Positions 632-55,861 of a stretch of 64,000 bases of DNA are shown here, one piece after another; positions within the stretch are counted from its first letter, which is position 1, and each line of letters begins with the position of its first letter. The stretch lies in contig NZ_JXQI01000039.1 of NCBI RefSeq assembly GCF_000834015.1, positions 1 through 64,000 on the forward strand. Reading direction: 5' to 3'. This DNA comes from Prevotella pectinovora (GTDB lineage: Bacteria; Bacteroidota; Bacteroidia; Bacteroidales; Bacteroidaceae). The position numbers and the translations under genes were made by a program. The notes beneath the pieces were generated by a model. The model had not been told where the DNA came from, made no database searches, and saw nothing but the letters and a program-made list of their open reading frames with translations.

Positions 632-642
632 TAATGCTTTAT

Positions 643-825
643 CCCAAAACGGTCATCAGACCGTTTATAAAATTATTTAATGACTGCTTGCAGCCTTTTG
701 TTTTTTATAAGGCGTCTTTTGTCTGTTTTTAATTCGCAATAGCTCGCTATTACTCATTAAAAGCCAAACAAAATCCACTCTTCTAAAAAAGCAAAATACA
801 AGCAAGCCCTAATGACCGATTTGGG
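643..825 (+). repeat. Full-length MITE-like element, copy A
   Basis: A 183 bp element that starts CCCAAAACGGTCAT and ends with the inverted form ATGACCGATTTGGG. It is flanked by the 5 bp direct repeat TTTAT (638-642 and 826-830). The same sequence recurs at 31771-31953, 41235-41417 and 55648-55831. It has no ORF of note. The right-hand copy of the TTTAT duplication contains the first two bases of the ATG start codon of the following gene, so the insertion replaced that gene's upstream region. Confidence 0.8.
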
Positions 826-828
826 TTT

Positions 829-2556
829 ATGAAGAAATTATCTTATTTTATTTTTGCGTTACTTTTGTTGTCTTGTTCTTTTTCCGATAAACCTTTTGTT
901 CTGAAGAAGGCTGAGGCATTGGTAGATAGTTTGCCCGATGCCGCCTTGAAGATTCTTGAAGAGAATAAATCTGCAGCGGATGGTTTTCCCACAAGATACA
1001 GGATGGATTATCTGCTTCTTTATGCTATGGCTATGAATAAGTCATACGTGTCTATGGATACGGTTGGCTTTATGCCCCAAGTAATTCGGTATTATGAGGA
1101 TCATGGCAGTACAGGAGATTTGGTTAAGGCAAATTATATGATGGGATGTGTCTTTCGGGATAAGGGAGACTCTCCAATGGCTTTGCGCTATTTTCTGAAT
1201 GCCACCAGATTGTCGGATGTCAATAACTCAGATTGTGACGTTAACGAACTTGCTGCCATCTATGGTCAGATAGGGTATGTATTTTATAATCAACGTATTC
1301 TCACCAAGGCTATTGAGGCATGGCATAAATGTCAAAAGTATGCCCTATTGGCGGGGGATACCATCAGGGCTATACAGAGCATTGAGTATTGTGGGTATTC
1401 TTATCGTGGACTGAATAAATTGGATAGTGCTATTTCCATAGCTAAGAGAGTATATGCTTCTTATAAAAGAATCGGCGATAATGAAAGGGCGGCTTCGTCT
1501 TTGGGCTCGCTTATCCTTTATTGTCTTGACACAGATAGTCTTGACGCAGCGAAGAAATATATGGATGATTATATCATGCATTCTGGATACTTTGACAAAG
1601 AAGGGAATTTGCAGCCAGGGCATGAGTCTTTCTATTATTATTTGGCTGATTATTATGAACGCTTGGACAGGTTAGACTCAGCAGAATATTTTTATCGCCG
1701 GTTATTATGCAATGCCACAAATTATAACAGTTCAGAAAATGGAAGCCGTGGATTGATGCGTATTTATTCTCGTAAGGGTGAAGCGGATTCTGTGATGAAA
1801 TATTCAAATATGTTTGTCGATTCAAACGATTCTTCCAGTTTTCACCGATCGGCAGCAGAAGTCAGCAAGATGCAAGCCTTATATGATTATTCAGAAAACA
1901 AGGCTTTGGCAATAAGGGAGTCAAACAGGGCTGATAGATACCAATATCTGGTAATTGTCTTGCTGTTGTTTCTTCTGTTTTTTTCTTTGGGCATATATTT
2001 CTTCCTTACAAAGCTCAGAAAAAGAAAAATGAGGGCATTGCAGGAAATAAATGAGAGATATTCAGATACGTTATTGAAATATTATGATGCTATAGCCGAA
2101 AGAGATAAACTGAAAAGTGGCATAGAGAAACAGAAGAATAGTATGGAGGAGGAAATAATGTATTTGAAGAACAAACTTTCTTCGTTCTCAGACGAAACCG
2201 ACTGGGCGAAATGGGACTCCGAGCAGTCTTTGTTGTCTCATGAGGTCGTGATGAGAATTCATAAGCATGCTTCGAGGGGCAAGATGCCATCGGCAAGCGA
2301 GTTGAACAGTCTTATAGAAGTGGTAAAGCAATCGCTTCCTGGCTTTTATGAGTTCTTGAGCAACCCCAAATACGCAGTGTCTGATAATGAGATGCTGGTT
2401 TGCATCTTTACACGCCTTCATTTTATACCATCAGAGATTGCTACATTGCTTAACTTGACAAAGCAGAGAATTTCAAATATGAGGTCTGGATTGAACAAGA
2501 AATTGTTCAAAACAAAAGGTACGAAATCTTTCACAGCGAATATATACCGATTGTGA
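829..2556 (+). CDS. TPR-containing membrane-anchored regulator with C-terminal HTH
   Basis: Encodes 575 residues. The N-terminus is a lipoprotein-type signal (LLLLSC, Cys near residue 16). Residues about 25-345 are helical TPR-like repeats (for example AAIYGQIGYVFYNQ and ESFYYYLADYYERLDRLDSAEYFY). A single transmembrane helix lies near residues 373-394, followed by a coiled-coil stretch to about residue 450. The C-terminus (MLVCIFTRLHFIPSEIATLL...ISNMRSGLNKKLF) has the spacing of a LuxR-like helix-turn-helix. This layout (periplasmic TPR, one membrane helix, cytoplasmic DNA-binding domain) is common in Bacteroidetes and suggests signal-dependent transcription control, but no ligand or target can be read here. 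The ATG abuts a repeat element, and no ribosome-binding site is apparent in the new upstream sequence. Confidence 0.75.
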   Translation: MKKLSYFIFALLLLSCSFSDKPFVLKKAEALVDSLPDAALKILEENKSAADGFPTRYRMDYLLLYAMAMNKSYVSMDTVGFMPQVIRYYEDHGSTGDLVKANYMMGCVFRDKGDSPMALRYFLNATRLSDVNNSDCDVNELAAIYGQIGYVFYNQRILTKAIEAWHKCQKYALLAGDTIRAIQSIEYCGYSYRGLNKLDSAISIAKRVYASYKRIGDNERAASSLGSLILYCLDTDSLDAAKKYMDDYIMHSGYFDKEGNLQPGHESFYYYLADYYERLDRLDSAEYFYRRLLCNATNYNSSENGSRGLMRIYSRKGEADSVMKYSNMFVDSNDSSSFHRSAAEVSKMQALYDYSENKALAIRESNRADRYQYLVIVLLLFLLFFSLGIYFFLTKLRKRKMRALQEINERYSDTLLKYYDAIAERDKLKSGIEKQKNSMEEEIMYLKNKLSSFSDETDWAKWDSEQSLLSHEVVMRIHKHASRGKMPSASELNSLIEVVKQSLPGFYEFLSNPKYAVSDNEMLVCIFTRLHFIPSEIATLLNLTKQRISNMRSGLNKKLFKTKGTKSFTANIYRL

Positions 2557-2681
2557 TGAGTTGTGTACTATGTTTATAATTTTGTCTAATTGCTAGATAT
2601 AATGTGGCTTAGGATTGTTCTTATTGATGTGGTGTTTACTTTGTTTACTCGCTTCTTGTCATAAGTGATTTATAATATGCG

Positions 2682-2689
2682 TATCTTTG
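2682..2689 (+). promoter_or_regulatory. -7 box upstream of the 2784 micro-ORF
   Basis: TATCTTTG matches the TAnnTTTG consensus about 100 bp upstream of the ATG at 2784. No good -33 element at the expected spacing was found. Confidence 0.4.
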
Positions 2690-2783
2690 CCTTCGTCAAA
2701 TGTATTTGTTTAGACCATACTAATAAAAAGGAGCAGAATCCGAAAAGCTTCAAGAGTAGGATAGTTTTTTAATTCTTATAGAA

Positions 2784-3008
2784 ATGAAGGAAATATGATT
2801 AAGTGCGATTTTCGCACTATTGGTTTGTTGCTCTGTCTCAGCACATCCAATCAAGGTGACTTTATCTAATGGACAAGTTGTTATTTTGGAGTCAGATGAT
2901 TATGAGACGATGGAGGATCTAATGGCTGCTATAAAAGCAATGGAGCGAAAAATTTCCTCCTCTACTGATTCGTCAAATCCTCCAACTACAGCTCCTAAGA
3001 ACCCTTGA
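2784..3008 (+). pseudogene. Small secreted protein with in-frame TGA at codon 5
   Basis: Reading from the ATG at 2784 gives MKEI, a TGA stop (2796-2798), then LSAIFALLVCCSVSAHPIKV and on to a stop at 3006-3008. The part after the TGA completes a typical signal peptide with an SAH cleavage region, followed by about 50 residues of mature protein ending in a Ser/Thr/Pro-rich tail. A TGG-to-TGA change is the simplest explanation. The alternative is initiation at the TTG at 2820, but that would lose half of the signal peptide. The mature part (VTLSNGQVVILESDDYETME) is not recognised. A promoter-like box precedes the ORF, which supports a once-functional gene. Confidence 0.45.
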
Positions 3009-3101
3009 TATATGTATATAATAATGGTGGTGACTCTAATTGTATTTTTGAGTCGCCACTATTTCTAATTATTGTCTTTATATGTCAAATTGATACTTTC
3101 T

Positions 3102-3134
3102 TTTGTTCCATTTCATAAATTTTCCCTATTTTTG
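3102..3134 (+). promoter_or_regulatory. Promoter for the GLPGLI/barrel operon
   Basis: TTTG at 3102-3105, a 21 bp spacer and TATTTTTG at 3127-3134 fit the Bacteroidetes promoter consensus. The ATG of the first gene follows at 3181. Confidence 0.6.
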
Positions 3135-3180
3135 CAATAATCTTATATTCCCAATCAGAGAAAAATTAGAACTGACAGAT

Positions 3181-4038
3181 ATGCAAATCAAGAAGATAAC
3201 GGCTTTATTCATGATGCTGGCAGCAGTGGCGAGTACGGCATTCTCGCAGTCTGTGCATGGCGGCACATTGCCACCGCTGAAACCGGTGGAGAAAACGGTG
3301 TATGACACGGCATACGTGAAGGTGTATTATGAATTCTCATACAGACCAGACTCACTCAGCAAGGGGAGGAAGGACGGTCAGACGATACTGCTCGTGGGCG
3401 ACAAGGCACAGAGCTTCGTCGACTATTTTGACGACAGGACAGATTTCATCAACGACTCGCTCGCCGCTGCCAAACGCCCACCGATGGAAGCCTTCACGAT
3501 GAATATGGGAATGATGAAAAGAATGGCATACACATATCCATTGGTGATAGACCGCAGTCGCAATGTGGCAATCATACAAGTGGACAACGTGAACACATAC
3601 CAGTACACCCAACCAGTTCCGGAAATCAGTTGGCAGACCGTAGAAGGCGACACCACAATATGCGATGTGGCATGCAGGAAAGCCGTGTGCAGTTTCGGCG
3701 GTAGAGACTGGACGGCATGGTATGCCCCTACGTTTGATTTGCGTACAGGACCATACCTCTTCGGAGGATTGCCAGGGTTGATATTCAGTATCTGCGACAC
3801 AAAAGACAACTACCGCTTCACGCTGAATGGACTGGAAAACCTCGGCAAGGGAGTGCCCGTATATCTCAAGTCGAGCAACAAGATCCTGCATACTACGCGT
3901 GACAAAGTGCGCAAGGCAGTGGAAAACGAACAGGCAGACATATACAAAGCTTTCCAGTTGCAGAACCCGGGTGCGGTGTTCACTCCGCAGGCAGGTGACA
4001 CCGGCAGACGCCCCTATAACCCTATAGAACTCGAATAG
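3181..4038 (+). CDS. GLPGLI family secreted protein
   Basis: Encodes 285 residues from the ATG at 3181 (MQIKKITALFMMLAAVASTAFSQ signal peptide); an upstream in-frame start at 3103 overlaps the promoter and is rejected. The family signature GGLPGLIFSICD lies about residue 195. Two earlier pairs of features typical of the family, TWYAP-like (WTAWYAPTFDL) and cysteine pairs (CDVACRKAVC), are present. Family members are exported proteins of unknown function that often precede an outer-membrane barrel protein. Here the stop codon TAG at 4036-4038 is directly followed by the ATG of such a barrel, so the two are almost certainly translated from one mRNA. Confidence 0.85.
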   Translation: MQIKKITALFMMLAAVASTAFSQSVHGGTLPPLKPVEKTVYDTAYVKVYYEFSYRPDSLSKGRKDGQTILLVGDKAQSFVDYFDDRTDFINDSLAAAKRPPMEAFTMNMGMMKRMAYTYPLVIDRSRNVAIIQVDNVNTYQYTQPVPEISWQTVEGDTTICDVACRKAVCSFGGRDWTAWYAPTFDLRTGPYLFGGLPGLIFSICDTKDNYRFTLNGLENLGKGVPVYLKSSNKILHTTRDKVRKAVENEQADIYKAFQLQNPGAVFTPQAGDTGRRPYNPIELE

Positions 4039-6381
4039 ATGAAAAGAATACCCACTCTGCTGTGTGCTTCACTCTGTGTAATCATCGCTGAAGCCCAGAA
4101 TGAAGGAGACGGAATACGCCGTACGACGAAACTGCCGGAAGTCACCGTCAGGCTGAAACCTGTGGAGCAGGTTGGCGACACAATTAAATACAACGTGTCT
4201 GCCTTTCAGGGCAAGGACGACCATTATCTGGAGGATGTGCTGAAAAAGATGCCCGGGATACAGGTGTCGCCAAACGGTACGATACTCTATAAGGGCGAAA
4301 CAATAAACCAGTTTAATATAGAAGGACAGAACCTCCTCGGCAACAGATACAGTCAGGCAACGCGCAACCTCCCCGTAGAGGCGATATCACAGGTGCAGGT
4401 GATGGAGAACGACCAGCCCATCCGTGCACTGAAGTCTACGGTTCCGTCAGACAGGGCAACGCTCAACATCAAACTGAAAAGCGGCTACAAGATGCGCCCC
4501 TTTGGAGAACTGGAAGGTGGAGTGGGATATGGCGAGGATGCCACATGGAACAACCACCTGTCGGTGATAAACATCGCCGCCAAGAACCAGCTGCTCCTCA
4601 CGGCAAAGATGAACAACACAGGCGAAGACCTCAGTGGCAATGCCGTATCAAACAATATCAATGTGAGCGACCTGGAAGGCTACGTGGCATTGCCGCGCAA
4701 CAGCGTGAACGCTATGGAAACCATCTTCTCGCCGATACCGCAGCAGCGCTATCTCAAAAACAGAGCGTATTCCGTCGGATTCAACCACATGCATAGGGTG
4801 GGGCGGTATGGCGGACTGCGCACTAACATCGACCTCTATTCCACTGCCGACAACCTTGCCGACAGTACCTATTATCTCTATGGCGGAGCACATACCGCCA
4901 CTCTCTCGCAGAGCAACCGCATAAAGGTGGGCGAGAAGACCATCGCCCCAAAGTTCAGATACGAACTGAACGCCCCCAAAGTGTATCTCCTCGACCAGCT
5001 GTCGGCATCCCTCTCTTATCATACGGGTCAGAACGACATCTATAGCAACGGCAGACAGGTGGGGCAGCAGGTGACACGCCATCCGTCATACGTCCAAAAC
5101 AAGTTGGCGATGACGATAAGTTCCGGTCTGCATACCTACAACATCGGTTCCACGCTCTTCTACTTCCGCCGAAGCGAGACGTTGGCGGCGACTGATGCCG
5201 GGGGAGTCTATGACATCCGTGAGCGCATCGGTTTCAACCGCTTCAAGACAGCCAACAGTATTTCCACGTCATTCCCCCTGTTCGGCAATATCCTCGACCT
5301 GAGATACGAATTTTCATATCTCTCAGACAGGGTGAGGATAGACGCTGCCGACGACAACGACAACAGCAGTCTGCTCAACACCATTGCCCCTTCATACACC
5401 ATGCGCTATTCCAAGGACATACTGGTGCTGGATTGTCCCATAAACCATTATGCCGCAAAGATACCATGGCGGTCAGGTGGAAGACATGTCAACCGGACAT
5501 ACCTCTCGCCATCCGTGCGCTGGAACCACAATTTCTCACCCCAATGGCGACTCACCATCGCCGGGGCAATGCTCCAAGGCGCTGACGACGATGTCATAAC
5601 GCCGCAGGCCTACCGCTCCGACTACCGAACTCTCACCGCTACCCCAGACCGCATGGGGTGGGCACGGTCGTCGAATGCGTCGCTGAAGATAAACTATGGC
5701 GATTTCGTGAATATGTTCACATGGAACCTCCTTGCCACAATGTCGTGGCGCCATTCCGACTGGCGTTTTGCCTATGATATCAGCAACGACCTCACCAAGT
5801 TGACTCCTCTGTGGCAGTCTGCCACCACACGCTATCTCATGGCGCAGACACGGGTGGAGAAGACTTTCACACAGGTACATGTCGCCATACAAGGCACCGT
5901 GAGCTACAGTCGCAATGAGTTGCCGGTGGTACAGAACGGACTGCAGCAGCGTGTGGTGTCGAATGTCGCCACGTCGTGTCTGTTGGTAAGATGGTATGAC
6001 TTGTCGTGGCTGCAGGTCACCAACGAGTCAACCTTCAACCTCTCCTGGCAAGACCGTTATGCTAACAGCAACAGTCAGACGCTGAAAAGCCTTTTCAACG
6101 ATTTCAGTCTTGTGCTTTCGCCCCTCAGCCGTCTCTCTCTTACTGTGTCATGCGATTACTCTTTGTTGGAGACATCCAAGGGTGAGTATAACTCCATCCT
6201 GTTTGCCGATGCCAAGCTGCTCTATACTCCATCCAAGAGATGGGAACTGGGTCTGCGTATCGACAATGCCCTGAACCGCAAGCAATATGTAGACGCTTCC
6301 TTCACCGGTTTCAACTACCGTTATTTCTCACTTCCTTTGCGGGGCAGAGAAGCAATGGTCACGGTGAAGTACAAGTTTTAG
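4039..6381 (+). CDS. TonB-dependent-receptor-like outer membrane beta-barrel protein
   Basis: Encodes 780 residues with a signal peptide ending near AEA/Q (residue about 19). Residues about 30-150 resemble a TonB receptor plug (LEDVLKKMPGIQVSPNGTI, then INQFNIEGQNLL and the ISQVQVMENDQP segment). No CarboxypepD-like beta domain is obvious before it. The remainder alternates amphipathic strands and ends in an aromatic residue (VTVKYKF), the usual outer-membrane barrel signature. Zero-base spacing to the GLPGLI gene indicates co-translation and probably joint function at the outer membrane. No substrate can be inferred, and no SusD-like partner is nearby. Confidence 0.8.
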   Translation: MKRIPTLLCASLCVIIAEAQNEGDGIRRTTKLPEVTVRLKPVEQVGDTIKYNVSAFQGKDDHYLEDVLKKMPGIQVSPNGTILYKGETINQFNIEGQNLLGNRYSQATRNLPVEAISQVQVMENDQPIRALKSTVPSDRATLNIKLKSGYKMRPFGELEGGVGYGEDATWNNHLSVINIAAKNQLLLTAKMNNTGEDLSGNAVSNNINVSDLEGYVALPRNSVNAMETIFSPIPQQRYLKNRAYSVGFNHMHRVGRYGGLRTNIDLYSTADNLADSTYYLYGGAHTATLSQSNRIKVGEKTIAPKFRYELNAPKVYLLDQLSASLSYHTGQNDIYSNGRQVGQQVTRHPSYVQNKLAMTISSGLHTYNIGSTLFYFRRSETLAATDAGGVYDIRERIGFNRFKTANSISTSFPLFGNILDLRYEFSYLSDRVRIDAADDNDNSSLLNTIAPSYTMRYSKDILVLDCPINHYAAKIPWRSGGRHVNRTYLSPSVRWNHNFSPQWRLTIAGAMLQGADDDVITPQAYRSDYRTLTATPDRMGWARSSNASLKINYGDFVNMFTWNLLATMSWRHSDWRFAYDISNDLTKLTPLWQSATTRYLMAQTRVEKTFTQVHVAIQGTVSYSRNELPVVQNGLQQRVVSNVATSCLLVRWYDLSWLQVTNESTFNLSWQDRYANSNSQTLKSLFNDFSLVLSPLSRLSLTVSCDYSLLETSKGEYNSILFADAKLLYTPSKRWELGLRIDNALNRKQYVDASFTGFNYRYFSLPLRGREAMVTVKYKF

Positions 6382-6390
6382 AATAGATGG

Positions 6391-6704
6391 TTGTGGGATT
6401 CAACCCCACGACCTTCAGGACTTTTTCTTTCCAGATATCAGCTATTGATGGTGATAATGGCTATTGATGGAATAATGATTATTGATGGGATAATGTCTAT
6501 TGATGAATAATGTTGAAATTGCTTGTCGCATATATATAAACAAGTGACTCCGGTGGGATTCAAACCCACGACCTTCAGAACTTTTTCTTTCCAGATATCA
6601 GCTATTGATGGTGATAATGGCTATTGATGGAATAATGATTATTGATGGGATAATGTCTATTGATGAATAATGTTGAAATTGTTTGTCGCATATATATAAA
6701 CAAG
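6391..6704. repeat. 160 bp tandem repeat carrying tRNA-Arg 3' halves
   Basis: The block beginning with the T-arm sequence GTGGGATTCAA recurs at 6391, 6551 and 6711, an exact 160 bp period. The first two units contain only the 3' half of the tRNA (acceptor strand, T arm, variable loop and part of the anticodon arm) and then switch to a spacer; the third is the intact tRNA at 6705-6778. Each spacer itself holds four degenerate copies of a 17-18 bp unit of the form CTATTGATGGnATAATG. Confidence 0.8.
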
Positions 6705-6778
6705 TGACTCCGGTGGGATTCAAACCCACGACCTTCAGAACCGGAATCTGACGCTCTATTCAGCTAAGCTACGGAGCC
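6705..6778 (-). tRNA. tRNA-Arg (anticodon CCG)
   Basis: On the minus strand the acceptor GGCTCCG pairs with CGGAGTC, followed by an unpaired A. The anticodon stem TCAGA/TCTGA encloses the loop TTCCGGT, so the anticodon is CCG. The T arm GTGGG-TTTGAAT-CCCAC is intact. The CCA end is not encoded. Two truncated copies of the 3' half lie immediately downstream of the gene. Confidence 0.9.
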
Positions 6779-7160
6779 ATAAAATAATAGTCACAATATA
6801 TATATATATGCACTGACACTCAATTTCAGGCTGCAAAGATAATGTATTTTTTTGATATGAAGAAATGATTGGCCGATAGTTTTAACCCAAATTGGTTATC
6901 AGGGCTGCTTGACACATGCGATGAGGTGATGACAACAACTGCTCCCAGCCAGTGTGTTCCCTCGCTGCAAAAGTAGAGAAAACGGCAGCAGGCAGGATGA
7001 ATGTTGTTAATATACACCTTGACGAGTAGTATCTCGACTATTTGTAAACTTGATTTTACATTGTTGAATAACGTTCCCCTCCAAGGTCGATAAATTGTAT
7101 TAAAATGCAGTTGGAAAGCAGTTTTTTCGTTCAGAATTTAGTTTATTCCCAAAAAACGAT

Positions 7161-7168
7161 TACATTTG
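7161..7168 (+). promoter_or_regulatory. -7 box for the decarboxylase-like gene
   Basis: TACATTTG matches TAnnTTTG. TTTA at 7137-7140 is a weak -33 candidate 20 bp upstream. The coding start is at 7276. Confidence 0.45.
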
Positions 7169-7275
7169 CAAAATAAAAACACACGCAACAGACTCAGTTC
7201 GGTGGGACATGAATAGTAGTTGTGATTTTGAATGTCCGCTAAGAATAGCCTGTTACGCTTTAAATCGAAGACGAA

Positions 7276-9621: not shown

Positions 9622-10164
9622 ATGAGCATTGTCTAACGGGTGGAAGTCCCGAGTAAGCCCTAATAGCGGGAATTACATAGCCAAAGGCAAGGGTGTCCAT
9701 CGTGAGTTGGAGTCTGAAAGAAGCCGGAGGCAAACATCTGACTTAACGAACAGAAACTTCATACAATGCATATTACCATGGGTAAGGTTGCCAAACAAAT
9801 CAAAGCCCGATAGCTATTCGGAACGGTCGGTGGAGTTTCCTTGAGCTTGCGAAAAAATGAAGTGGGTATAAGATGGAAAGACAATGCCCTTATCCGAGGA
9901 GATTTCACGGACGCATGGTGAAGATGAGGTATTCGATGTACCATGACGGAGTAAACTCTATTCACACGATAGGACGGAATCCGACAATAGAATAGAAGTG
10001 ACGTATCTCGAAGGGATGGCTGAAAACAACTTGCCACACACCGCAAGGCGTAAAAGCACGAAACCGCCGTATGCGGAACCGCACGTACGGTGGTGTGGGA
10101 GGTCGGTAAATGTGAAAGTAGGAGGTAAATGCCTTTTATGAATAACATTTACCTCCTACCCGAT
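9622..10164 (+). ncRNA. ORF-less group II intron (or intron remnant)
   Basis: There is no protein-coding frame. The 3' part holds an unmistakable domain V hairpin at 10063-10094: arms ACCGCCGTATGCGG and CCGCACGTACGGTGGT, including the GUAUGCG/GCACGUACGG core seen in known introns. A 14 bp perfect stem (10118-10131 with 10146-10159) follows at the domain VI position. Upstream, GGAGGCAAACATCTGACTT and neighbouring blocks resemble domain I. Domain IV, where the reverse transcriptase would sit, is only a few tens of bases long. Ends are approximate. I could not identify the bulged branch-point A in the last stem, so splicing ability is uncertain. The element sits just after a small hairpin downstream of the HD gene. 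Confidence 0.65.
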
Positions 10165-11751: not shown

Positions 11752-12402
11752 ATGAAGGAGTCAACGCGTTGGGCTGGGTCATATTTTTTTGTGTCTTTAA
11801 TATGCCTTTTGAGGGATGGACAAGTAATAGGTCTGCCAAGACGTTTGCATCATTCACCACCATCTTTTGCATTTATAAGGTCAAGAAGTTTTGGCTCTAC
11901 ACCTCCGCCAAGCACAACCAGATACCGATGTGCCGTATCGCTGGCAAGATTATTGGAGGAAGGGCAAGAAAAGACTGTATCCGACCAGAAGCGACCAGAA
12001 AACGACCAGATAAGCGACCAGATAAAAATGATTTTAGAACTAATCAAGGAAAAACCACATATAAGTAGAAGCGAAATTTCACACAAAATGGGACTTCATG
12101 AAAGTAGTGTAAAGCGTCGTCTGAAGATGATGGTTGATAAAGGTATTATTCAACGCATAGGTTCCGACAAAGGTGTTGTTGGCAAATTAAATAATTCTAT
12201 TCTGATTATGAAATGTAAAATTGAAACATCAAATGGTATCATGTTTTTGAAAGGAATAGATGGAGATAAACGATTGGAAATTGCTGATTTCATATTAATG
12301 GAACATGTCGCAAAGTTACAGGAAATACGGGATTACGACAACTTTGAGCAAGAAATCTGTCGTAATCTCACTTTTTTATTGAGATTACGACAGATTATTT
12401 AA
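11752..12402 (+). pseudogene. Composite gene debris: excisionase-like fragment joined to a winged-helix fragment
   Basis: An open frame of 216 codons exists but is made of unrelated remnants. Around 11875-11960, in another frame, the translation KKFWLYTSAKHNQIPMCRIA closely matches part of the DNA-binding protein at 21440 (KQSWLYTTAKRNRISICRIA). From about 11985 to 12190 the open frame reads as a winged helix (ISRSEISHKMGLHESSVKRR) like the C-termini of AlbA_2/RecG-like regulators. The final 120 bp duplicate the promoter and palindrome found upstream of the ATPase gene at 19197. I do not think a working protein is made. Confidence 0.5.
12311..12397 (-). promoter_or_regulatory. Orphan promoter plus palindrome, duplicate of the one at 19226-19312
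   Basis: On the minus strand GTTG, 20 bp and TAACTTTG (12311-12318) form a promoter. Upstream lies the inverted repeat AATCTGTCGTAATCTCA (12354-12370) / TGAGATTACGACAGATT (12380-12396). The same arrangement precedes the ATPase gene at 19197, but here no gene follows on the minus strand. Confidence 0.5.
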
Positions 12403-13243: not shown

Positions 13244-13325
13244 GTTTACCCGTTGGCGGAATTAATTTAAGTCGATAAATATGAGTAAAAAGTTGTACAT
13301 ATCGCTGATTTTTAAGTAACTTAGT
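13244..13325 (+). repeat. Repeat family R2, short copy
   Basis: CCCGTTGGCGGAATTAATTTAAG and the following ATATCGCTGATTTTTAAGTAA match the R2 repeat at 19566-19760 and, inverted, at 55490-55860. The left terminal block is shared with a small palindrome at 17560-17606. Confidence 0.6.
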
Positions 13326-19197: not shown

Positions 19198-19225
19198 ATC
19201 TATTTCATATTAATGGAATATGTCG

Positions 19226-19312
19226 CAAAGTTACAGAAAACACGAGATTACGACAACTTTTAAGTAAGAAATCTGTCGTAATCTCACTTTTTCATTGAGA
19301 TTACGACAGATT
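19226..19312 (-). promoter_or_regulatory. Promoter with upstream inverted repeat for the ATPase at 19197
   Basis: The minus strand reads GTTG (19254-19257), 20 bp, TAACTTTG (19226-19233). Upstream, AATCTGTCGTAATCTCA (19270-19286) and TGAGATTACGACAGATT (19296-19312) form a perfect 17 bp inverted repeat, and a further GAGATTACGACA copy (19244-19255) overlaps the -33 region. The same block recurs at 12311-12397. Confidence 0.65.
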
Positions 19313-19500
19313 TTGATGATAAAAGCCCAAATTAAAGACTTAAAAATAGGGAACAAGGCATTAGTGTCCAATTTTAAATTGGACACTAATGTTCTCTGAC
19401 TTGGAAGTAGTGGCATTATCCCTGTCGGCATTAAGGGCAGAATTGATGCCAGGCGGCTGCCTAATAAGTTCATGTCGCAATAACCATATTTCAGTTTTAA

Positions 19501-19565
19501 CCTAAATCGGCCATTAGGGCTTGCTTGGATTTTGGTATTTTAGAAGAGTGGATTTAGTTTGTCTT
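19501..19565 (+). repeat. Truncated MITE copy
   Basis: CCTAAATCGGCCATTAGGGC and the following TTGG and AGAAGAGTGGATTT blocks match the right end (inverted) of the 183 bp element. It stops where R2 begins at 19566. Confidence 0.6.
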
Positions 19566-19760
19566 ACCCGTTGGCGGAATTAATTTAAGTTGGTCGACAT
19601 GAGCAAAAGTTGCCCATATCGCTGATTCTTAGTAAAAACGAGAATTTCTGAAAAACTGTCAGATTGTCTGGTTTTTTGTCGTAATATTCTGTCAATCAGA
19701 TAGTTGACCGCCAGGCAATTGTCAGCCTATTGTCTGGATGGTTTGCTGATGAAAAGAGAA
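19566..19760 (+). repeat. Repeat family R2, long copy
   Basis: Begins CCCGTTGGCGGAATTAATTT and continues through AACTGTCAGATTGTCTGG and a TTGTCTGGATGGTTTGCTGA end. Homologous stretches occur at 55060-55190 (same strand) and 55490-55645 (inverted). This copy has the uninterrupted AATTAATTTAAGTTGG site that is split by a MITE at 55648. Confidence 0.65.
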
Positions 19761-31741: not shown

Positions 31742-31763
31742 CAAGCCCTGATAACCGATTGGG
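31742..31763 (+). repeat. Solo MITE right end
   Basis: CAAGCCCTGATAACCGATTG plus GG is a diverged copy of the right terminus, just upstream of full copy B. Confidence 0.45.
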
Positions 31764-31770
31764 TATTAAA

Positions 31771-31953
31771 CCCAAATCGGTCATTAGGCCGTTTAATGTA
31801 TAATTTTAATAACTGCTTGCAGTCTTTTGCTTTTTATAAGGCGTCTTTTGCTCGTTTTTAATTCGCAATAGCCCGCTATTACTCATTAAAAGCCAAACAA
31901 AATCCACTCTTCTAAAAAACAAAATCCATGCAAGCCCTAATGACCGATTTGGG
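31771..31953 (+). repeat. Full-length MITE-like element, copy B
   Basis: 183 bp, flanked by TTAAA on both sides (31766-31770 and 31954-31958). It lies between the convergent ends of lptD and the MaoC gene and could form a long hairpin in either transcript. It accounts for most of the gene-free interval 31707-32038. Confidence 0.8.
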
Positions 31954-32038
31954 TTAAACACCAAGCCCTGACCACCGCATATTGAGACACTTTCTCAATC
32001 ATCCCGGTAGTCAGGGCTTGTTCTGTTTCTCTTTCGTA

Positions 32039-34142: not shown

Positions 34143-34211
34143 CCTAAATCGGTCATTAGGGACTGCAAGCAGTTATTAAAAATATACCTTAACGGCCTAA
34201 TGACCGTTTGG
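34143..34211 (-). repeat. Short-form MITE copy
   Basis: A 69 bp, internally deleted version with both ends: CCTAAATCGGTCATTAGG at the left and CCTAATGACCGTTTGG at the right. It resembles the outer copy at 41209-41468 in inverse orientation. No target duplication is evident. The surrounding interval 34122-34484 holds nothing else recognisable. Confidence 0.6.
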
Positions 34212-41193: not shown

Positions 41194-41208
41194 GTCTGTT
41201 TCCTTGAA

Positions 41209-41468
41209 CCCAAAACGGTCATTAGACCGTTCAACCCAAAACGGTCATTAGGCCGTTCAATGTAATATTTTATAACTGCTTGCAGTCTTTTGCTTTTTAT
41301 AAGGCGTCTTTTGCTTGTTTTTAATGAGTAATAGCTCGCTATTACTCATTAAAAGCCAAACAAAATCCATCCTTCTAAAAAATCAAAATCCAAGCAAGCC
41401 CTAATGACCGATTTGGGTTCAATGGTAGTATTTTATAACTGCTTGCAGTCCCTGATGACTGATTTGAG
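41209..41468 (+). repeat. Outer short-form MITE carrying a nested full-length copy
   Basis: The outer element (CCCAAAACGGTCATTAGACC ... ATGACTGATTTGAG, about 72 bp without the insert) is flanked by TTGAA at 41204-41208 and 41469-41473. It is split by a complete copy at 41235-41417. Confidence 0.75.
41235..41417 (+). repeat. Full-length MITE-like element, copy C (nested)
   Basis: 183 bp, flanked by TTCAA at 41230-41234 and 41418-41422, both inside the outer copy. Removing the insert and one TTCAA restores a continuous short-form element. Together with the terminator it fills the interval 41194-41603. Confidence 0.8.
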
Positions 41469-41514
41469 TTGAAATTCAGGAGCAGTACCCGTCGACAGAT
41501 TTGCGGCAAAAGGA

Positions 41515-47943: not shown

Positions 47944-47974
47944 CGATAAATCCTCCACTTGGTAAACAATCAAG

Positions 47975-48022: not shown

Positions 48023-48079
48023 TCTTTATTTTCCGCGTGATAATCGTCCATAATTAATAGAATTGATAAAAATCGTGTG

Positions 48080-48109: not shown

Positions 48110-48130
48110 GGAGTTGTAGCGGCGAATTAG

Positions 48131-48138
48131 TATCTTTG
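48131..48138 (+). promoter_or_regulatory. -7 box of the TonB receptor gene
   Basis: TATCTTTG, 34 bp before the ATG at 48172; this promoter is divergent from the corA promoter 22 bp away. Confidence 0.5.
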
Positions 48139-48171
48139 CAACCGTTTTTTAATAATTTACTTTATATTTTT

Positions 48172-50274: not shown

Positions 50275-50284
50275 TATAACGACC

Positions 50285-50905
50285 CTATTTCCGAAGTTCG
50301 CCCAGAATGACGATCTTGTCGCTTCTCGACAAGTCTCCGGGATTGCTTCCCGGTTCGCCTTCTGGCACCTTCAATCCCTGACGGGCATAATAATCCCTCC
50401 AATAGGCGGTTATTGTGCCCGTCTTGTCATGAAACGACATCGGAATCGGTTTGAACACCAGTTCGCCATCCCTGCTCCTGTAGCATTTCTGCACCAGTTC
50501 GCTGCAATACATCGCACTGTCCGACGGCATGAAATTGAAGTCGTATGGTGTACCGATAAACTGTATTGCCCTCTCCACCGAGCGAGCCACGCCGACTGTG
50601 TCTTTCAGTTGTCCCACCACCACATGACGTCTCGCCATGAAGCTGTCGATAGGAGTGAGACACACTCCCTTGTGTATGGCTTCAAGGGCAAATCCCTTTC
50701 CTCCGGCATTATGATAAATCGCCACATGGTCGATCTGTCTGCCGTCAAGTCCCGTAGTTACGTCAGTTATGTTGTTGCCGCTTTCAGCCACACAGAAGAG
50801 CAGGTCGCCCTCGGCAAGTCTGCTTGCGGTTATTCCCTTGTTTCCCTGTGCCCACAGACATATAGAAAGACACATGACCGTTGCGGTGATAATTATCTTC
50901 TTCAT
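50285..50905 (-). CDS. YiiX/YebB-like NlpC/P60 family cysteine hydrolase
   Basis: Encodes 206 residues with a signal peptide (TATVMCLSICLWAQG). The permuted papain-like arrangement is visible: GDLLFCVAES near the N-terminus, QIDHVAIYHNAGGKGFALEA with the catalytic His, and SAMYCSELVQKCYRS with the catalytic Cys. Family members cleave lipid or peptidoglycan bonds. The protein should act in the periplasm. Its 3' end faces the end of the TonB receptor gene, separated by 10 bp, so the two genes are convergent and unrelated in transcription. Confidence 0.8.
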   Translation of the reverse strand: MKKIIITATVMCLSICLWAQGNKGITASRLAEGDLLFCVAESGNNITDVTTGLDGRQIDHVAIYHNAGGKGFALEAIHKGVCLTPIDSFMARRHVVVGQLKDTVGVARSVERAIQFIGTPYDFNFMPSDSAMYCSELVQKCYRSRDGELVFKPIPMSFHDKTGTITAYWRDYYARQGLKVPEGEPGSNPGDLSRSDKIVILGELRK

Positions 50906-51000
50906 CGTCTTGAATGTTATTTTTATTTCAGGATATGAATCCTTTTATATCAGTTGTTTTTTTGATATCTGCTAATGTTGAAATTAAAGATCTGGGTTAA

Positions 51001-51050
51001 CCCCAGGCAGTCATAAAAACACATAAAACTGCCTAATGACCGATTAGACC
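51001..51050 (+). repeat. Very short MITE remnant
   Basis: CCCCAGGCAGTCAT ... CTGCCTAATGACCGATTAGA with TTAA on both sides (50997-51000 and 51051-51054). It is a minimal inverted-repeat derivative of the family, just beyond the 3' end of the DUF5056 gene. Confidence 0.45.
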
Positions 51051-51437
51051 TTAAATCTCAGACAGTTTCTTGTTCTCTGCCAGACACCATATTGCTACGA
51101 CCATTGTGGCAACAAGTGGCAGTGTGAAAACCAATGGGTTGATATGTTCAGGATCAAACTGCTGCATGATGTCTGTCATCCATCTTATGCAGTTCCAAAA
51201 GACGTGTGTGGCAGACTCGTGGATGTTTGATATCAGGTCGATGTATATCAGGATGACGATGCCCGCTGTCCAGCATACCGCCGTCCATATCCTGGAGATT
51301 CTCCTCAGCCTCTTGTCAGCCGCAGGTTCGATGGCTTCCATCACCCTGTCAGAGAATCCCTCGTCGGCAATCACCGTCTGGTTTGCCGTTGAGAAAAAGC
51401 GTTTCAGCAATTCGTCTTTATCTTCTTTCATATCCAT
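51051..51437 (-). CDS. DUF5056 family small membrane protein
   Basis: Encodes 128 residues. A soluble N-terminal part (DELLKRFFSTANQTVIADEG, FSDRVMEAI) is followed by two transmembrane helices (WTAVCWTAGIVILIYIDLIS; LVFTLPLVATMVVAIWCLA). It overlaps the sigma-factor gene upstream by 20 bp, so the two are translationally coupled. A two-helix membrane protein directly behind an ECF sigma gene suggests an anti-sigma-like role, but the canonical zinc anti-sigma domain is absent. Its stop codon lies inside the flank of a MITE remnant. Confidence 0.75.
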   Translation of the reverse strand: MDMKEDKDELLKRFFSTANQTVIADEGFSDRVMEAIEPAADKRLRRISRIWTAVCWTAGIVILIYIDLISNIHESATHVFWNCIRWMTDIMQQFDPEHINPLVFTLPLVATMVVAIWCLAENKKLSEI

Positions 51438-51963
51438 TGTCTTTTAAGTATGTGGTGAGTTTCTCCTTGCCTCTGTGCAGGTGGGATTTCACTGTGCCCT
51501 GCGGTATGCCGGTTATGGCGGCAATCTTGTCAATCGGCTGTCCGTCGATGAGCTGTAGCGTTATGCATGTGCGTTCGTCAGGTTTCAGTGTGGCGAGAGC
51601 CTTCAGTATGTCCATCCCCAAAGTGCAGTCGTCATTGTCGGCATGGCGAGCCGCAACAGAGGGTGTGTCCATGTCCTCCGTCTGGTGGTGGCTGCGGCGA
51701 TAGTCGTAATGGGTGTTGTAGGCTATTCTCATCAGCCATGTGGAGAATGATGACAGTCCTCTGAACTTCCCTATGTTGGCATACGCCTTGATGAACGTCT
51801 CCTGTGCCAGGTCGTCGGCGAGCTGCCGGTCGCCCAGCGTGAGGCTGAGCAGGAAGCGGCGCACTTGCGACTGGTATTTGCGCAACAGCGAGTCGAAAGC
51901 CCGCTTGTTGCCAAATACCGCCACCTGGGTGACGAGCTTTATGTCATTCATCAATTCAGGCAT
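51418..51963 (-). CDS. ECF-type RNA polymerase sigma factor
   Basis: Encodes 181 residues. Region 2 is clear (KRAFDSLLRKYQSQVRRFLL, DLAQETFIKAYANIGKFRGL, FSTWLMRIAYNTHYDYRR), followed by region 4 (ALATLKPDERTCITLQLIDG, IDKIAAITGIPQGTVKSHLH). It belongs to the RpoE-like ECF group. It lies between a DUF6249 gene upstream (35 bp) and the overlapping DUF5056 gene. The three genes form one minus-strand operon, probably a membrane-linked stress response. Confidence 0.88.
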   Translation of the reverse strand: MPELMNDIKLVTQVAVFGNKRAFDSLLRKYQSQVRRFLLSLTLGDRQLADDLAQETFIKAYANIGKFRGLSSFSTWLMRIAYNTHYDYRRSHHQTEDMDTPSVAARHADNDDCTLGMDILKALATLKPDERTCITLQLIDGQPIDKIAAITGIPQGTVKSHLHRGKEKLTTYLKDNGYERR

Positions 51964-51998
51964 GATGTCAGAGTCCTTTCCTTTGGGTTGTTGTATCT

Positions 51999-52784
51999 TT
52001 ATCCTATGTTCTCGTCGTTGGCATTCTGAGTAGTGCCGTTGTCATATCCTTGCCGGTTGTCGTTGTTTTGCCGGTTGTATCCGTTTTGTGGATTGTTATA
52101 GCCATTGTCGGCATAAGGTGCGTTCTGTCTCTGGTCGTTGAAGTTTTGCTGGGAGAAGTTTCCATTGATGTTTCCTCCGCCGGTTGTCTTGGCTATTATC
52201 GCCTGCCCCACTCCGTATATGGCGATGAGCAATCCGATGCCACACGCCAAATTGATGTTGAGGATGAAGTACATCACGGTGAGTCCGATGCCGAGGAAGA
52301 TGTTCTTTATGCCCTTCGACCACAGGTAGTCGTTGCGTGAAGCTTGGTTCTTTGCCGCGAAGTCGGGTATCGGCTGTCCGCTTTTTATCGCCATCTCCGC
52401 GAGTTTCAGTTTCTGGTTGCGCGATTTCACTATGAGATAGATGACGAGGCCTATTATTGCCACCGGAGCGAGGAAGCATACGATGAACACTATCGTTATA
52501 GGTATCATCGCTTCTTTGAACATCTGTTTCGCCACATCCGACATGTTCGAGTGTATCTTTGTGTAATTCATCACGGAATCGGGAGCTGCATCCTGGTCGT
52601 CCGTGTCGGTAGTGTCGCTGAATGCCACAATTGCTGTAGCGGAATCTTTCTTTGCGCCGGCGTCAGCATTCTTGTGTCTTACTACGGAGCTCGTTGCCGA
52701 TGTCCTGTTGCCGTGTCTTGCCATCGTAGGGAGGGCAGCCGACAATGTCATGCCGATAATCAGTGTTGCTATAATTCTTTTCAT
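51999..52784 (-). CDS. DUF6249 membrane protein, head of the sigma operon
   Basis: Encodes 261 residues from the ATG at 52784 (MKRIIATLIIGMTLSAALPT signal peptide); the longer frame to 52916 is rejected because it runs back through the upstream repeat region. After a Thr/Asp-rich spacer come a helix-rich DUF6249 region: one membrane helix (PITIVFIVCFLAPVAIIGLV), a KLAEMAIKSGQPIPDF segment, two more helices, and an Asn/Gln/Gly-rich tail. The family is found beside ECF sigma factors and its function is unknown. It may act as the sensor part of the sigma/DUF5056 unit. Confidence 0.72.
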   Translation of the reverse strand: MKRIIATLIIGMTLSAALPTMARHGNRTSATSSVVRHKNADAGAKKDSATAIVAFSDTTDTDDQDAAPDSVMNYTKIHSNMSDVAKQMFKEAMIPITIVFIVCFLAPVAIIGLVIYLIVKSRNQKLKLAEMAIKSGQPIPDFAAKNQASRNDYLWSKGIKNIFLGIGLTVMYFILNINLACGIGLLIAIYGVGQAIIAKTTGGGNINGNFSQQNFNDQRQNAPYADNGYNNPQNGYNRQNNDNRQGYDNGTTQNANDENIG

Positions 52785-53193
52785 ATCCGTTATGTTTTTT
52801 GTTTCGTTGATATTTTGTCTTGTTTCAGCAGTTAGACGGAGTGGGGTGGGGAATAGTTGCAAAATTATGAAAAAAAATGCTTTGACCCAAATCGCTGATT
52901 GTGATTTACCCCACAATGGTCATTAGGACTTGCCAGAATTTTGTTTTGTAGAAGAGTGGATTTTGTTTGTCTTTTTAAAGAGCAATAGCGGCTATTGCGA
53001 ATTATGGGTTTAAGGTATATAAAATCCGATTCTTCGTCGTTTTTTTATGTCTCGTGTCACAATATAATAAGTTGGCAAACGTTTATCTGTCATAGATAGA
53101 CCAATGTGGATAGATGGGTCTCGTCCAGACTTTCTTGTAAGACAACTTCCTTTGTCAACTCGATTTCTCGTCAACTCGTCAACTTAATAAAAT
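52785..53193. other. Divergent intergenic region between sigma operon and FMN/4Fe-4S gene
   Basis: Holds the leader of the DUF6249 gene, a solo MITE end-like CCCAAATCGCTGATT near 52886, an internally deleted MITE (52909-53008) and a TCGTCAACTCGTCAACTT repeat (about 53165-53187). No gene was seen. Confidence 0.5.
52909..53008 (-). repeat. Internally deleted MITE copy
   Basis: 100 bp beginning CCCCACAATGGTCATTAGGA and ending AATTATGGG, flanked by TTTA (52905-52908 and 53009-53012). Only the right-hand end of the family and the AGCAATAGCGGCTATTGCG core remain. Confidence 0.55.
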
Positions 53194-54273
53194 ATGAATA
53201 AGATAAAACAGATTCTGAGTCTTGTCACTTGTCTGATGATTCTCCTTTCGGTAGCTGTGTTGCGCAGCAACAAGATTTGGGGCAATCAGCTTGGCGGTGA
53301 AAAGACAGAAGTTGCCGACAGTCTGTCGGCAGGACCCGTCGTCACGAACGACGATGGAAGTATGGTGGTAAACACCGCATCCCTTGGCAAAGACATCCAG
53401 GGCTTTGCCGGCACCGTGCCCCTTGAAATCACCGTCCGCGACGGTGTGGTGGAGAACATCAGAGCTCTCGACAATCAGGAGACACCCTCTTTCTTTGCCA
53501 ATGCCGCCACATTATTTGATAAGTGGAAGGGTAAGACCATAGGTGAAGCCCTGGCGATGAAGGTGGATGCCGTTTCGGGAGCCACCTATTCGTCGCAAGC
53601 CATAATAGCGAATATGCAGCGCGGACTGCAGCTTGTGGCTAAGAAGCAGGAGGCAGACCGTGGTCCAGCCCTTGCTGATGTGTTGTCGCTGAAGAATGTG
53701 GCTGCTCTCATCGTGGTGCTCCTCGCCGCTATCCTGCCGCTCTTTGTCAAGAACCGCCGTTACCAGCTTGTTCAGATGGTACTCAATGTTGTGGTCCTCG
53801 GTTTCTGGTGTGGCAGCTTCCTGTCGTATGCCTCGCTGATGGGATTCCTTGCCAATGGCATGAACCTATGGCTGACTCTCGTTCCGGTGGTGATGATCGT
53901 CACGGCGTTCGTATATCCTCTTTTCGGCAAGAAGAGCTACTATTGCGCCCATGTCTGTCCGTTCGGTTCGCTGCAACAGGTTGCCGGTCAGCTAATCCCT
54001 CATAAATTGAAGATTGGCGCTGCCACGTTGCGCTTCCTCGACACGTTCAGACAACTGCTGTGGGCAGTCCTCATGTTGCTCTTGTGGAGTGGCGCATGGG
54101 GAGGCTGGACCGACTACGAACCCTTCTCTGCCTTCATCATGGATCAGGCTTCCCTGCCGGTAATTATCATTGCCGGTGTCTTTGTAGTGCTGTCGCTGTT
54201 CGTGCAGCGTCCGTATTGTCGTTTCGTGTGTCCGATGGGTACATTGCTGAAATTGGCGCAGAAAGGAGAATAA
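53194..54273 (+). CDS. NosR/RnfG-like FMN-binding protein with 4Fe-4S motifs
   Basis: Encodes 359 residues. After an N-terminal membrane helix comes a periplasmic FMN-binding domain with the flavinylation-type motif SGATYSSQAI (about residue 133). Four to five membrane helices follow, and two cysteine clusters of the NapH/NosR type: YYCAHVCPFGSLQ (about 250) and YCRFVCPMGTLL (about 345). Each cluster shows CxxxCP rather than the full four-cysteine set. The protein would move electrons across the membrane between a quinol/flavin pool and a periplasmic partner. A nitroreductase-like protein follows 23 bp downstream and is the likely partner. Confidence 0.8.
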   Translation: MNKIKQILSLVTCLMILLSVAVLRSNKIWGNQLGGEKTEVADSLSAGPVVTNDDGSMVVNTASLGKDIQGFAGTVPLEITVRDGVVENIRALDNQETPSFFANAATLFDKWKGKTIGEALAMKVDAVSGATYSSQAIIANMQRGLQLVAKKQEADRGPALADVLSLKNVAALIVVLLAAILPLFVKNRRYQLVQMVLNVVVLGFWCGSFLSYASLMGFLANGMNLWLTLVPVVMIVTAFVYPLFGKKSYYCAHVCPFGSLQQVAGQLIPHKLKIGAATLRFLDTFRQLLWAVLMLLLWSGAWGGWTDYEPFSAFIMDQASLPVIIIAGVFVVLSLFVQRPYCRFVCPMGTLLKLAQKGE

Positions 54274-54296
54274 TCCACTTGTCAACAAAAACAGAT

Positions 54297-54944
54297 ATGA
54301 AAATGAAATCATCATTCTTCCTCAACGTAGTGCTTGCCGCCGCTCTCCTTTGTGTCAGTGTGCGTCTTGCCACGGTGTCGGAAGAGAAAGCAGTAGAGAA
54401 GACCGGCGGCATCTCCGCCGAAGTATATCAGAACATCATGACGCGGTCGTCGGTGAGGGAATATCTCGACACCAGCATCTCCGACTCACAGATAGACACG
54501 CTGCTTCATGCCGGAATGGCTGCCCCAACGGCAATGAACCGTCAGCCGTGGCATCTCGTGGTGGTGAGAGACCGCAGTTTGCTGCAGCAGATTGCCGGGC
54601 TGTGTCCCAATGCCTCTATGGCGAAAGACGCACCGCTCGCCATCGTGCCGTGCGGTGACATGAGCAAATATGAAGAAGGCGAAGACGGGCTACGCGGCTT
54701 CTGGCCACAAGACCTCTCTGCCGTGACGGAGAATATCCTGCTGCAGGCACATGCCATGGGACTGGGTGCTGTCTGGACCGGCACCTATCCGTCGGAAGAG
54801 CGCTGCAAGGCGATGAGCCAGCTCCTCCGTCTTCCTTCCAATCTTGTTCCTTTCTGCACCATCGTTATAGGTTATCCCAAGGGCGACCAGCAGCCGAAAG
54901 ACAAGTGGGACGAGAGTAAGGTGACTTATGACATGGGTAAATGA
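54297..54944 (+). CDS. Exported nitroreductase family protein
   Basis: Encodes 215 residues from the ATG at 54297 (MKMKSSFFLNVVLAAALLCV), giving a hydrophobic export signal; the longer frame to 54060 overlaps the previous gene. The nitroreductase fold is clear: IMTRSSVREYLDTSISDSQI (FMN phosphate-binding Arg/Ser), AAPTAMNRQPWHLVVVRDRS, and GLGAVWTGTYPSEERCKAMS. Family enzymes use FMN and NAD(P)H, but an exported form cannot use cytosolic NAD(P)H, which fits electron supply by the FMN/4Fe-4S membrane protein just upstream. Substrate unknown. Confidence 0.8.
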   Translation: MKMKSSFFLNVVLAAALLCVSVRLATVSEEKAVEKTGGISAEVYQNIMTRSSVREYLDTSISDSQIDTLLHAGMAAPTAMNRQPWHLVVVRDRSLLQQIAGLCPNASMAKDAPLAIVPCGDMSKYEEGEDGLRGFWPQDLSAVTENILLQAHAMGLGAVWTGTYPSEERCKAMSQLLRLPSNLVPFCTIVIGYPKGDQQPKDKWDESKVTYDMGK

Positions 54945-55259
54945 ACCCCGTCTTAAGGCGATGTGCCAAGACATTTGCCTCATCCTGACTTTGACAGTGA
55001 CATAATTCCAGATTCTATATTCTGAAACAAATGGGGCAAAACCTTGCCCATAACGCTGATTTTTAGTAAAATCAAGAATTTTCAAAAAACTGTCAGACCA
55101 TCTGGTTTTTCGTGGTAATATTCTGATAAACAGATAGTTGACTACCTGGCAACTGTCAGCCAATTGTCTGGATGGTTTGAATACGAGATAAAAATTGTCA
55201 GGCGACAGAAAATCAGACGAATGGTATTCGGATGACAAGAATATGGATATAGCAACATC

Positions 55260-55440
55260 AACTTTTTGGGGCAACCGCTTTGCATAAATTCTGCCCAATT
55301 GGGGCAACGTGCTTGCCCATGTTGGGCAACGTGCTTGCCCCACTTGGGCACGCTGCTTGCCCCAGTTGGGCAGAACTGCTGTCAGACAAGTTCCCAATAA
55401 GTTAATGTTGTAATACCCATATTCCTGTTTTACAGGATTC
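55260..55440 (+). repeat. R3 repeat cluster with 23 bp period
   Basis: GTTGGGCAACGTGCTTGCCC-type palindromes recur three to four times head to tail, followed by GGGCAGAACTGCTGTCAGAC and an AATACCCATATTCCTG tail, as at 20815-20957. Confidence 0.6.
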
Positions 55441-55489
55441 TGCCAACGTATGCAATTCCTCACATCTGACAAATCCTTTCATCAGCAAA

Positions 55490-55861
55490 CCATCCAGACA
55501 ATTGACTGACAGTTGCCAGGTAGTCAACTATCTGTTTGTCAGAGTGTTATGTAGAAAAACCAGACAGTCTGACAGTTTTTTGGAAATTCTCGTTTTTACT
55601 AAGAATCAGCGATATGGGCAACTTTTACTTATGTCGACCAACTTAAACCCAAAACGGTCATTAGGCCGTTCAATGGTAGTATTTTATAACTGCTTGCAGC
55701 CTTTTGTTTTTTATAAGGCGTCTTTTGCTTGTTTTTAATTCGCAATAGCTTGCTATTACTCATTAAAAGCCAAACAAAATCCATCCTTCTAAAAAGACAA
55801 AATCCAGGCAAGCCCTAATGACCGATTTGGGTTAAATTAATTCTGCCAACGGGCATTGTCT
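55490..55861 (-). repeat. Repeat family R2, inverted copy split by a MITE
   Basis: Inverse of the 19566-19760 copy, from AACCATCCAGACAATTGACT to TTAATTCTGCCAACGGGC. The MITE at 55648-55831 interrupts it at TTAAA. Confidence 0.65.
55648..55831 (+). repeat. Full-length MITE-like element, copy D
   Basis: 184 bp, flanked by TTAAA (55643-55647 and 55832-55836). The R2 copy at 19566 shows the unoccupied site with a single TTAAA, so this is a true insertion with target duplication. Confidence 0.85.

Follow-up and report, generated by a model that had tools for sequence, protein, structure and literature searches.

A miniature inverted-repeat element of Prevotella pectinovora, probably mobilized by an IS1380-family transposase, encloses a conserved hairpin predicted to act as a single strand

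The window analysed here, a stretch of 64,000 nucleotides from Prevotella pectinovora (NCBI RefSeq assembly GCF_000834015.1, contig NZ_JXQI01000039.1, positions 1 to 64,000 of the forward strand), contains four full copies, each of 183–184 bp, of a miniature inverted-repeat transposable element (MITE). The explanation that we consider likely, taken as a whole, is that this MITE is moved by the transposase of an IS1380-family insertion sequence (IS) and that it carries a conserved hairpin, which is predicted to act as a single strand. The element has the features by which MITEs are recognized: it is shorter than 300 bp, has no transposase gene, ends in terminal inverted repeats (TIRs) of 18 bp, is flanked by target duplications, and has its ends in common with an autonomous element, of which the genome holds two copies. 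An initial annotation of the window had already read the element as a non-autonomous MITE, and the 5 bp duplications, the empty sites and the IS with the same ends that are described below all bear this out.

The end motif is present 17 times in the window at up to 3 mismatches, against 0.02 occurrences expected from shuffled sequence. The features are given here, the strand of a MITE copy being the one that bears the G.A mismatches of the hairpin. Model R2 is a covariance model of the hairpin without the ends, trained on 18 IS1380-ended elements only.

638–642, no strand: left target duplication TTTAT (right copy 826–830)
643–825, minus strand: full MITE copy, 183 bp; ends and a minus-strand hairpin model match of 83.8 bits
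694–797, minus strand: hairpin module (model R2), 83.8 bits
6886–6903, plus strand: truncated copy, single end, additional to the initial annotation
19501–19518, plus strand: truncated copy, single end
19567–19673, minus strand: paralogue of the 55648 site without the insertion, with a single TTAAA
20958–20975, plus strand: truncated copy, single end
31747–31764, minus strand: truncated right end adjoining the 31771 copy
31766–31770, no strand: left target duplication TTAAA (right copy 31954–31958)
31771–31953, minus strand: full MITE copy, 183 bp, exact 18 bp ends on both sides
31823–31926, minus strand: hairpin module (model R2), 90.2 bits; opposite strand 29.4 bits
34143–34213, no strand: short derivative of 71 bp with an end on either side and with neither target duplication nor hairpin
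41209–41468, no strand: short MITE of 72 bp without hairpin, split by 41235–41417; TTGAA at 41204–41208 and 41469–41473
41230–41234, no strand: left target duplication TTCAA (right copy 41418–41422)
41235–41417, minus strand: full MITE copy, 183 bp, within the short MITE
41286–41389, minus strand: hairpin module (model R2), 74.0 bits
51001–51049, no strand: degenerate short copy
52910–52927, plus strand: truncated copy, single end
55643–55647, no strand: left target duplication TTAAA (right copy 55832–55836)
55648–55831, minus strand: full MITE copy, 184 bp, within a copy of another repeat family
55700–55804, minus strand: hairpin module (model R2), 77.3 bits

The full copies lie where the initial annotation had placed them, and the four 5 bp direct repeats that it saw beside them are exact. 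Its common termini are also present: every full copy has the exact 18-mer on its right side, but on the left only the copy at 31771 has it. To call the copies near-identical was too strong, since they differ by small indels and their ungapped identity to the first copy is 72–88%. Of the shorter copies said to have the same ends, that at 41209 is not a separate copy but the left piece of the split 72 bp element; that at 34143 does have both ends, without a target duplication; that at 51001 is degenerate; and that reported at 52909 has one end only, at 52910. The truncated copies reported near 19501, 20958 and 31742 are indeed there as single ends. The copy at 643–825 stops 3 bp short of the ATG of the open reading frame (ORF) 829–2556, which encodes a TPR-like product, and the duplicated TTTAT overlaps this start codon.

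Has the family moved? Across the whole genome the end motifs occur 133 and 142 times (275) at up to 2 mismatches, with none for a reversed-pattern control, and a 193 bp query with flanks has 83 matches; the first survey gave 250 candidates, of which 40 were scored. From a genome sample of 312,089 bp, composed of 62 segments picked by end motifs and merged with the window, 63 full copies of 181–185 bp were recovered. Identical 5-mers flank 50 of these, whereas 20,000 shuffles averaged 10.3 and never exceeded 23, so that chance, which the initial annotation had named as one of two joint grounds for giving up mobility, is ruled out. Among 44 end pairs collected initially, the duplication was 5 bp in 32 and 4 bp in 2, with none of 3 or 6–9 bp. 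The targets of the 50 insertions follow the rule W-T-N-A-W: the second base is T and the fourth is A in all 50, and A or T occupies the two outer positions in 49 and 50 cases. Eight sets of 2–6 identical copies occupy differing sites, and the 31771 copy recurs unchanged at 4 further places in the sample.

Two of the four window copies have empty counterparts within the window itself. The copy at 41235 interrupts the 72 bp element at TTCAA, and uninterrupted relatives of that element show a single TTCAA; the 72 bp element in turn bears its own TTGAA duplication. The second site is a paralogue at 19567–19673, with 94.4% identity over 107 bp across the 55648 junction and a single TTAAA. Junction matches were found for 16 of the 50 insertions, although these include nested or adjacent MITE copies and are not all clean empty sites. 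As weak evidence on presence and absence, the end motif is lacking beside the lptD homologue at 19 of 19 examined loci of the same genus, where the downstream gene was not found and synteny is unestablished. Within the bacterial family the end motif was seen in 57 of 201 genomes, representing 15 of 30 genera, and matches to the full element in only 4 of the 201. Searches of two elements against plasmids, of one element against phages and of one apex pattern against viral contigs gave no match; the end motif was found in 3 viral contigs.

The lead to a partner element came from relatives in which two TIR pairs about 1469 bp apart enclose a gene for a 443-aa transposase. Two homologues are present in the genome of the window, at places outside it. 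They are of 441–442 aa, without stops and with 99% mutual identity, and both score above the NCBIfam IS1380 cut-off (NF033539; 233.7 and 230.2 against 180 bits). Each lies in a 1467 bp IS copy that ends in the same 17–18 bp as the MITE, and one copy has TTTAT on both flanks. An autonomous element with the same ends, which the initial annotation had suggested should be sought, is thus present as a two-copy IS1380-family IS. In named genomes relatives of the IS were found at 38 loci (e.g. Hallella bergensis, 96%, and Prevotella pallens, 92%). Both ends were located at 13 of the 18 loci examined, and an exact 5 bp duplication, in every case fitting W-T-N-A-W, at 8 of these 13. IS1380 insertions yield short direct repeats of 4–5 bp, and the 5 bp repeats of one of the two own copies and of the 8 named copies agree with this. 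Matches to the transposase occur in 17 of the 201 family genomes, some of them merely distant.

The MITE and the IS have the same 17 bp ends and 5 bp duplications, while the interior of the MITE is unrelated to the IS. Derivation of the MITE by deletion from the IS was rejected, since the similarity is confined to the ends. From these sequence correspondences it is very probable that the IS moves the MITE in trans. Its transposase would bind the MITE ends and mobilize the element by its family's DDE pathway. At two loci (L055 and L056) the left end of the IS is followed, immediately before the transposase gene, by a palindrome, TTTCTAATGACCGCCATTAGAAA, in which the inner portion of the end motif recurs and which could act in autoregulation. 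The target rule includes TTAA-like cores and so recalls the piggyBac superfamily, which duplicates TTAA and for which IS1380 transposases have served as outgroup (PMC10813416). Unlike the piggyBac duplication, that of the MITE is 5 bp long instead of 4, and no base in it is fixed except the second and the fourth (50/50).

What lies between the ends? The entire 183 bp element folds as one long imperfect hairpin, with fold z-scores of -8.6 and -10.1; neither this conserved hairpin nor its occurrence behind other ends figures in the initial annotation. Elements of other genera with the same ends differ in sequence and have the same architecture: an end and about 10 nt, followed by a hairpin some 105 nt long, then an arm on the 3' side that is unpaired, and the other end. 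When 19 elements from 6 genera were aligned, 92.0% of the cells in 39 interior pairs were paired and 29 of the 39 pairs had changed on both sides; none of 500 shuffles reached any of five measures, and slid controls were 37–51% paired. The mismatches are of one strand's kind. Under symmetric scoring there were 101 A.G against 2 C.T and 67 G.T against 11 A.C, the orientation in other genera being set by fold energy, and among 44 distinct copies from the genome of the window the counts were 285 A.G, 2 C.T, 147 G.T and 48 A.C. Six MITEs of 151 bp with the same ends gave 18 A.G, 12 C.T, 19 G.T and 12 A.C. This bias suggests that selection acts once that strand is single, and selection of just one strand of the hairpin seems probable to us.

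The apex TAGYGRDCTA is present in 78 of 85 hairpins collected across genomes, and is lacking in, for example, L281 and L282. A 2x2 loop is fixed in position, with A/A at the second place in 68 of 85 and GA opposite GA in 40. The hairpin is not a known RNA family as far as Rfam is concerned, since there was no match above the gathering threshold over the window elements and none in 20 loci; the weak microRNA-like matches below threshold are usual for long hairpins. The hairpin is absent from the four IS copies tested, and MITE classes of 151 bp and 179 bp with the same ends gave no match to the hairpin model, while 4 of 5 elements of 162 bp tested matched it weakly. The 179 bp class (G012; L200–L202) has in its interior the palindrome motif of the IS left end, as a fold-back of the IS end.

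The hairpin is more widely distributed than the element of the window. With no more than 19 candidates scored in any one genome, R2 matches at E <= 0.001 were obtained in 71 of the 201 family genomes and 20 of the 30 genera, and a search at the level of the class gave matches in 4 of 395 genomes at E <= 1e-5. Prevotella ihumii (L107) is a carrier that can be named. One of the four genomes of the class-level search (G592), from another family, has at least 10 hairpin copies. R2 scores the opposite strand of true hairpins at 25–55 bits, and the weakest matches, of about 38–50 bits, lean also on the common apex and flank.

These hairpins do not all stand behind the same ends. The first end type, CCCAAATCGGTCATTAG, has 5 bp duplications. 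Ends like GAAGCTGTTTGAAT / GAGCCTGTTTAAAT have 3 bp T-N-A duplications in 8 of 20 inspected rows, and ends like GGGTGTTCTATAAATTAG have 4 bp duplications in 12 of the 23 rows inspected, of which one genome (G198) contributes seven. Further ends in a few rows (L273, L274 and L276) are perhaps variants. Automatic typing of the 85 hairpins found both ends to be of the first type in 40 and one end in 2; the corresponding numbers were 10 and 7 for the second type and 17 and 4 for the third, and 5 fell under other types. Among 34 held-out elements with non-IS1380 ends, 90.2% of cells were paired and 34 of 38 pairs had changed on both sides, with 0 of 500 shuffles as good, in alignments (A5 and A6) that were fitted to the model and so are biased towards its structure. 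The mismatch bias recurs, with 38 A.G and no C.T in type B and 46 A.G and 1 C.T in type C. In 20 of 20 non-IS1380-ended elements measured the module starts 27–29 nt from the 5' end, and the longer flank is 3' of the module in 19 of the 20, the flanks being equal in the other. No transposase was found for either of the other end types: among the places listed in 5 genomes there was no pair of GGGTGTTCTATAAATTAG-like ends at IS spacing, and no search was aimed at GAAGCTGTTTGAAT-like ends, which resemble those of the IS5/IS1031 group.

Is this one MITE lineage whose ends have drifted, or one module carried on several transposons? On a tree of the 85 hairpins, with moderate branch support, there are 11 changes of end type, where shuffling gave 37.7 on average and never fewer than 30 in 300 trials; a hairpin has for the most part descended along with its ends, apart from several switches. 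This relatively small number of changes and the constant spacing between 5' end and module both fit drifted ends, an account that we hold to be less likely than not. It is opposed by a single genome (G082) in which the hairpin stands behind two end types (L260 and L288), and by duplications whose length, 5, 4 or 3 bp, varies with the end type, which points to different transposases. We put forward with some hesitation, as a proposal somewhat short of an even chance, that a selfish structured module of about 105 nt, as RNA or single-stranded DNA (ssDNA), has passed within MITEs of the Bacteroidales from the ends of one transposon to those of another, three or more unrelated transposons being involved, and that the hairpin, rather than the transposon ends, is the unit of selection.

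How might such a hairpin act? We lean slightly towards RNA over ssDNA. Neighbouring transcription would read through the element, the G.A-bearing strand would then take the form of a folded rod some 100 nt long, and a host RNA factor would bind or cut this rod, whereby an insertion would be better tolerated. A MITE with the module would persist under any transposase, which would account for the differing ends. That the hairpin serves tolerance or persistence of the element in this way is doubtful.

Several observations weigh against a MITE that is moved by this IS and has a hairpin working as a single strand. No exact duplication flanks 13 of the 63 full copies or 5 of the 13 named IS copies, and the second IS copy of the genome lies between ATAAA and TTTAT, with no direct repeat. 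One genome rich in hairpin MITEs (G056) has no transposase matches and another (G092) only distant ones (29%). The hairpin is dispensable for movement, since the 72 bp derivative and the 151 bp class have duplications without it. Against an RNA role linked to the neighbours, only about 27–29 nt of element lie 5' of the module, so that no internal promoter is apparent for the hairpin strand. Relative to co-oriented flanking genes the hairpin strand is the same in 15 cases and opposite in 12, so that a role tied to the neighbouring genes is unsupported, and a cis role linked to gene direction was rejected.

Other explanations have to be set beside this one. That the hairpin works as folded ssDNA, in lagging-strand replication or in DNA uptake or transfer, for example as a priming or protein-binding site, is somewhat unlikely, though it would lead equally to mismatches biased to one strand and sits well with the indifference to gene direction and with the want of an evident internal promoter. 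Orientation-specific stem-loops do serve as single-strand origins of mobile elements (PMC4595007). In G092 C2, 11 of 13 matches had their G.A strand on what the skew defines as the lagging strand, but G056 C1 gave 7 lagging and 6 leading, both counts being of top-scoring matches under weak local skew; and the ends are those of DDE-type double-strand transposition. In G056 the G.A strand is the contig plus strand in 16 of 19 listed matches, without a link to the replication strand. The apex TAGCG may resemble the single-strand origin motif TAGCGT, a likeness for which a literature search gave no confirmation.

MITEs are often fold-back structures, and the hairpin might be a functionless palindrome left from the origin of the MITE and kept paired through gene conversion between its arms. 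The palindromic 179 bp class, which includes the IS left-end motif, is in keeping with this; yet homogenized arms would lose their mismatches, whereas the one-strand-biased A.G persists in three end types, and the apex and the fixed loop also speak against this account, which is improbable. Still less credible, and very improbable in our view, is that the elements are immobile host regulatory repeats held at fixed places. It can draw on the position of 52 of 53 scorable copies outside predicted ORFs (10 of the 63 were unscorable and the ORF calls were crude), and on the reported effects of bacterial MITEs on their neighbours by RNA folding (PMC3733652). Gene orientation is unbiased against background, full-element matches are limited to the 4 family genomes, and the nested insertion adds to the case; fixed host repeats were rejected on the exact duplications, the identical copies elsewhere and the empty site 19567–19673.

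Mobilization of MITEs by IS in trans is known, as is RNA folding of MITEs (PMC3733652). As listed there, ERIC, NEMIS/Correia, RUP, YPAL and Bcr1 are bacterial MITEs that fold as RNA and, like the present element, are noncoding, intergenic and strongly structured, of 70–300 bp with terminal repeats of 15–30 bp; the present family differs in that a covarying hairpin with a fixed apex also stands behind ends of no fewer than two additional types, whose duplications differ in length. BrickBuilt of Porphyromonas gingivalis is likewise an intergenic Bacteroidales MITE with predicted structure but is constructed on a 23-nt minisatellite (PMC4596501). The REP/RAYT system (PMC3733652) has imperfect, strand-defined palindromes, but these are of 20–40 bp, without terminal repeats with target duplications, and depend on an IS200/IS605-type transposase. 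At 183 bp and with 5 bp duplications, the present element is not the REP type of 20–40 bp palindrome with a GTAG or CGTC foot and no duplication. We found no report of a covarying hairpin common to MITEs of three end types, in literature searches with thin coverage of subscription journals.

Other repeats are present in the window. A tandem 160 bp direct repeat at 6393–6712, 98% identical, overlaps at its end a tRNA-Arg gene (6704–6778). Two closely spaced matches to group II intron families on the plus strand (D1D4-3 at 9696–9888 and Intron_gpII at 10062–10164) resemble an intron remnant that lacks the protein. Another interspersed repeat family, of up to about 174 bp, occurs at 13246, 17555, 19564–19757, 55039 and 55474–55647, and the 55648 MITE resides in one of its copies. 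A repeat pair at 12287–12401 and 19202–19313, with the palindrome TGTCGTAATCTCA..., is 93–94% identical, and its first member lies beside a winged-helix gene.

MITEs are commonly regarded as passive debris defined by their ends. Conserved pairing, a conserved apex and mismatches of one strand's kind, all maintained behind varied ends, suggest that selection can bear on the interior of a MITE. The hairpin offers a testable RNA or ssDNA family outside Rfam, with many copies and present in 20 of the 30 sampled genera of one bacterial family. The target rule W-T-N-A-W for IS1380 is now drawn from 50 insertions, and a genome that has an intact IS1380 partner is a setting in which movement of the MITE is testable.

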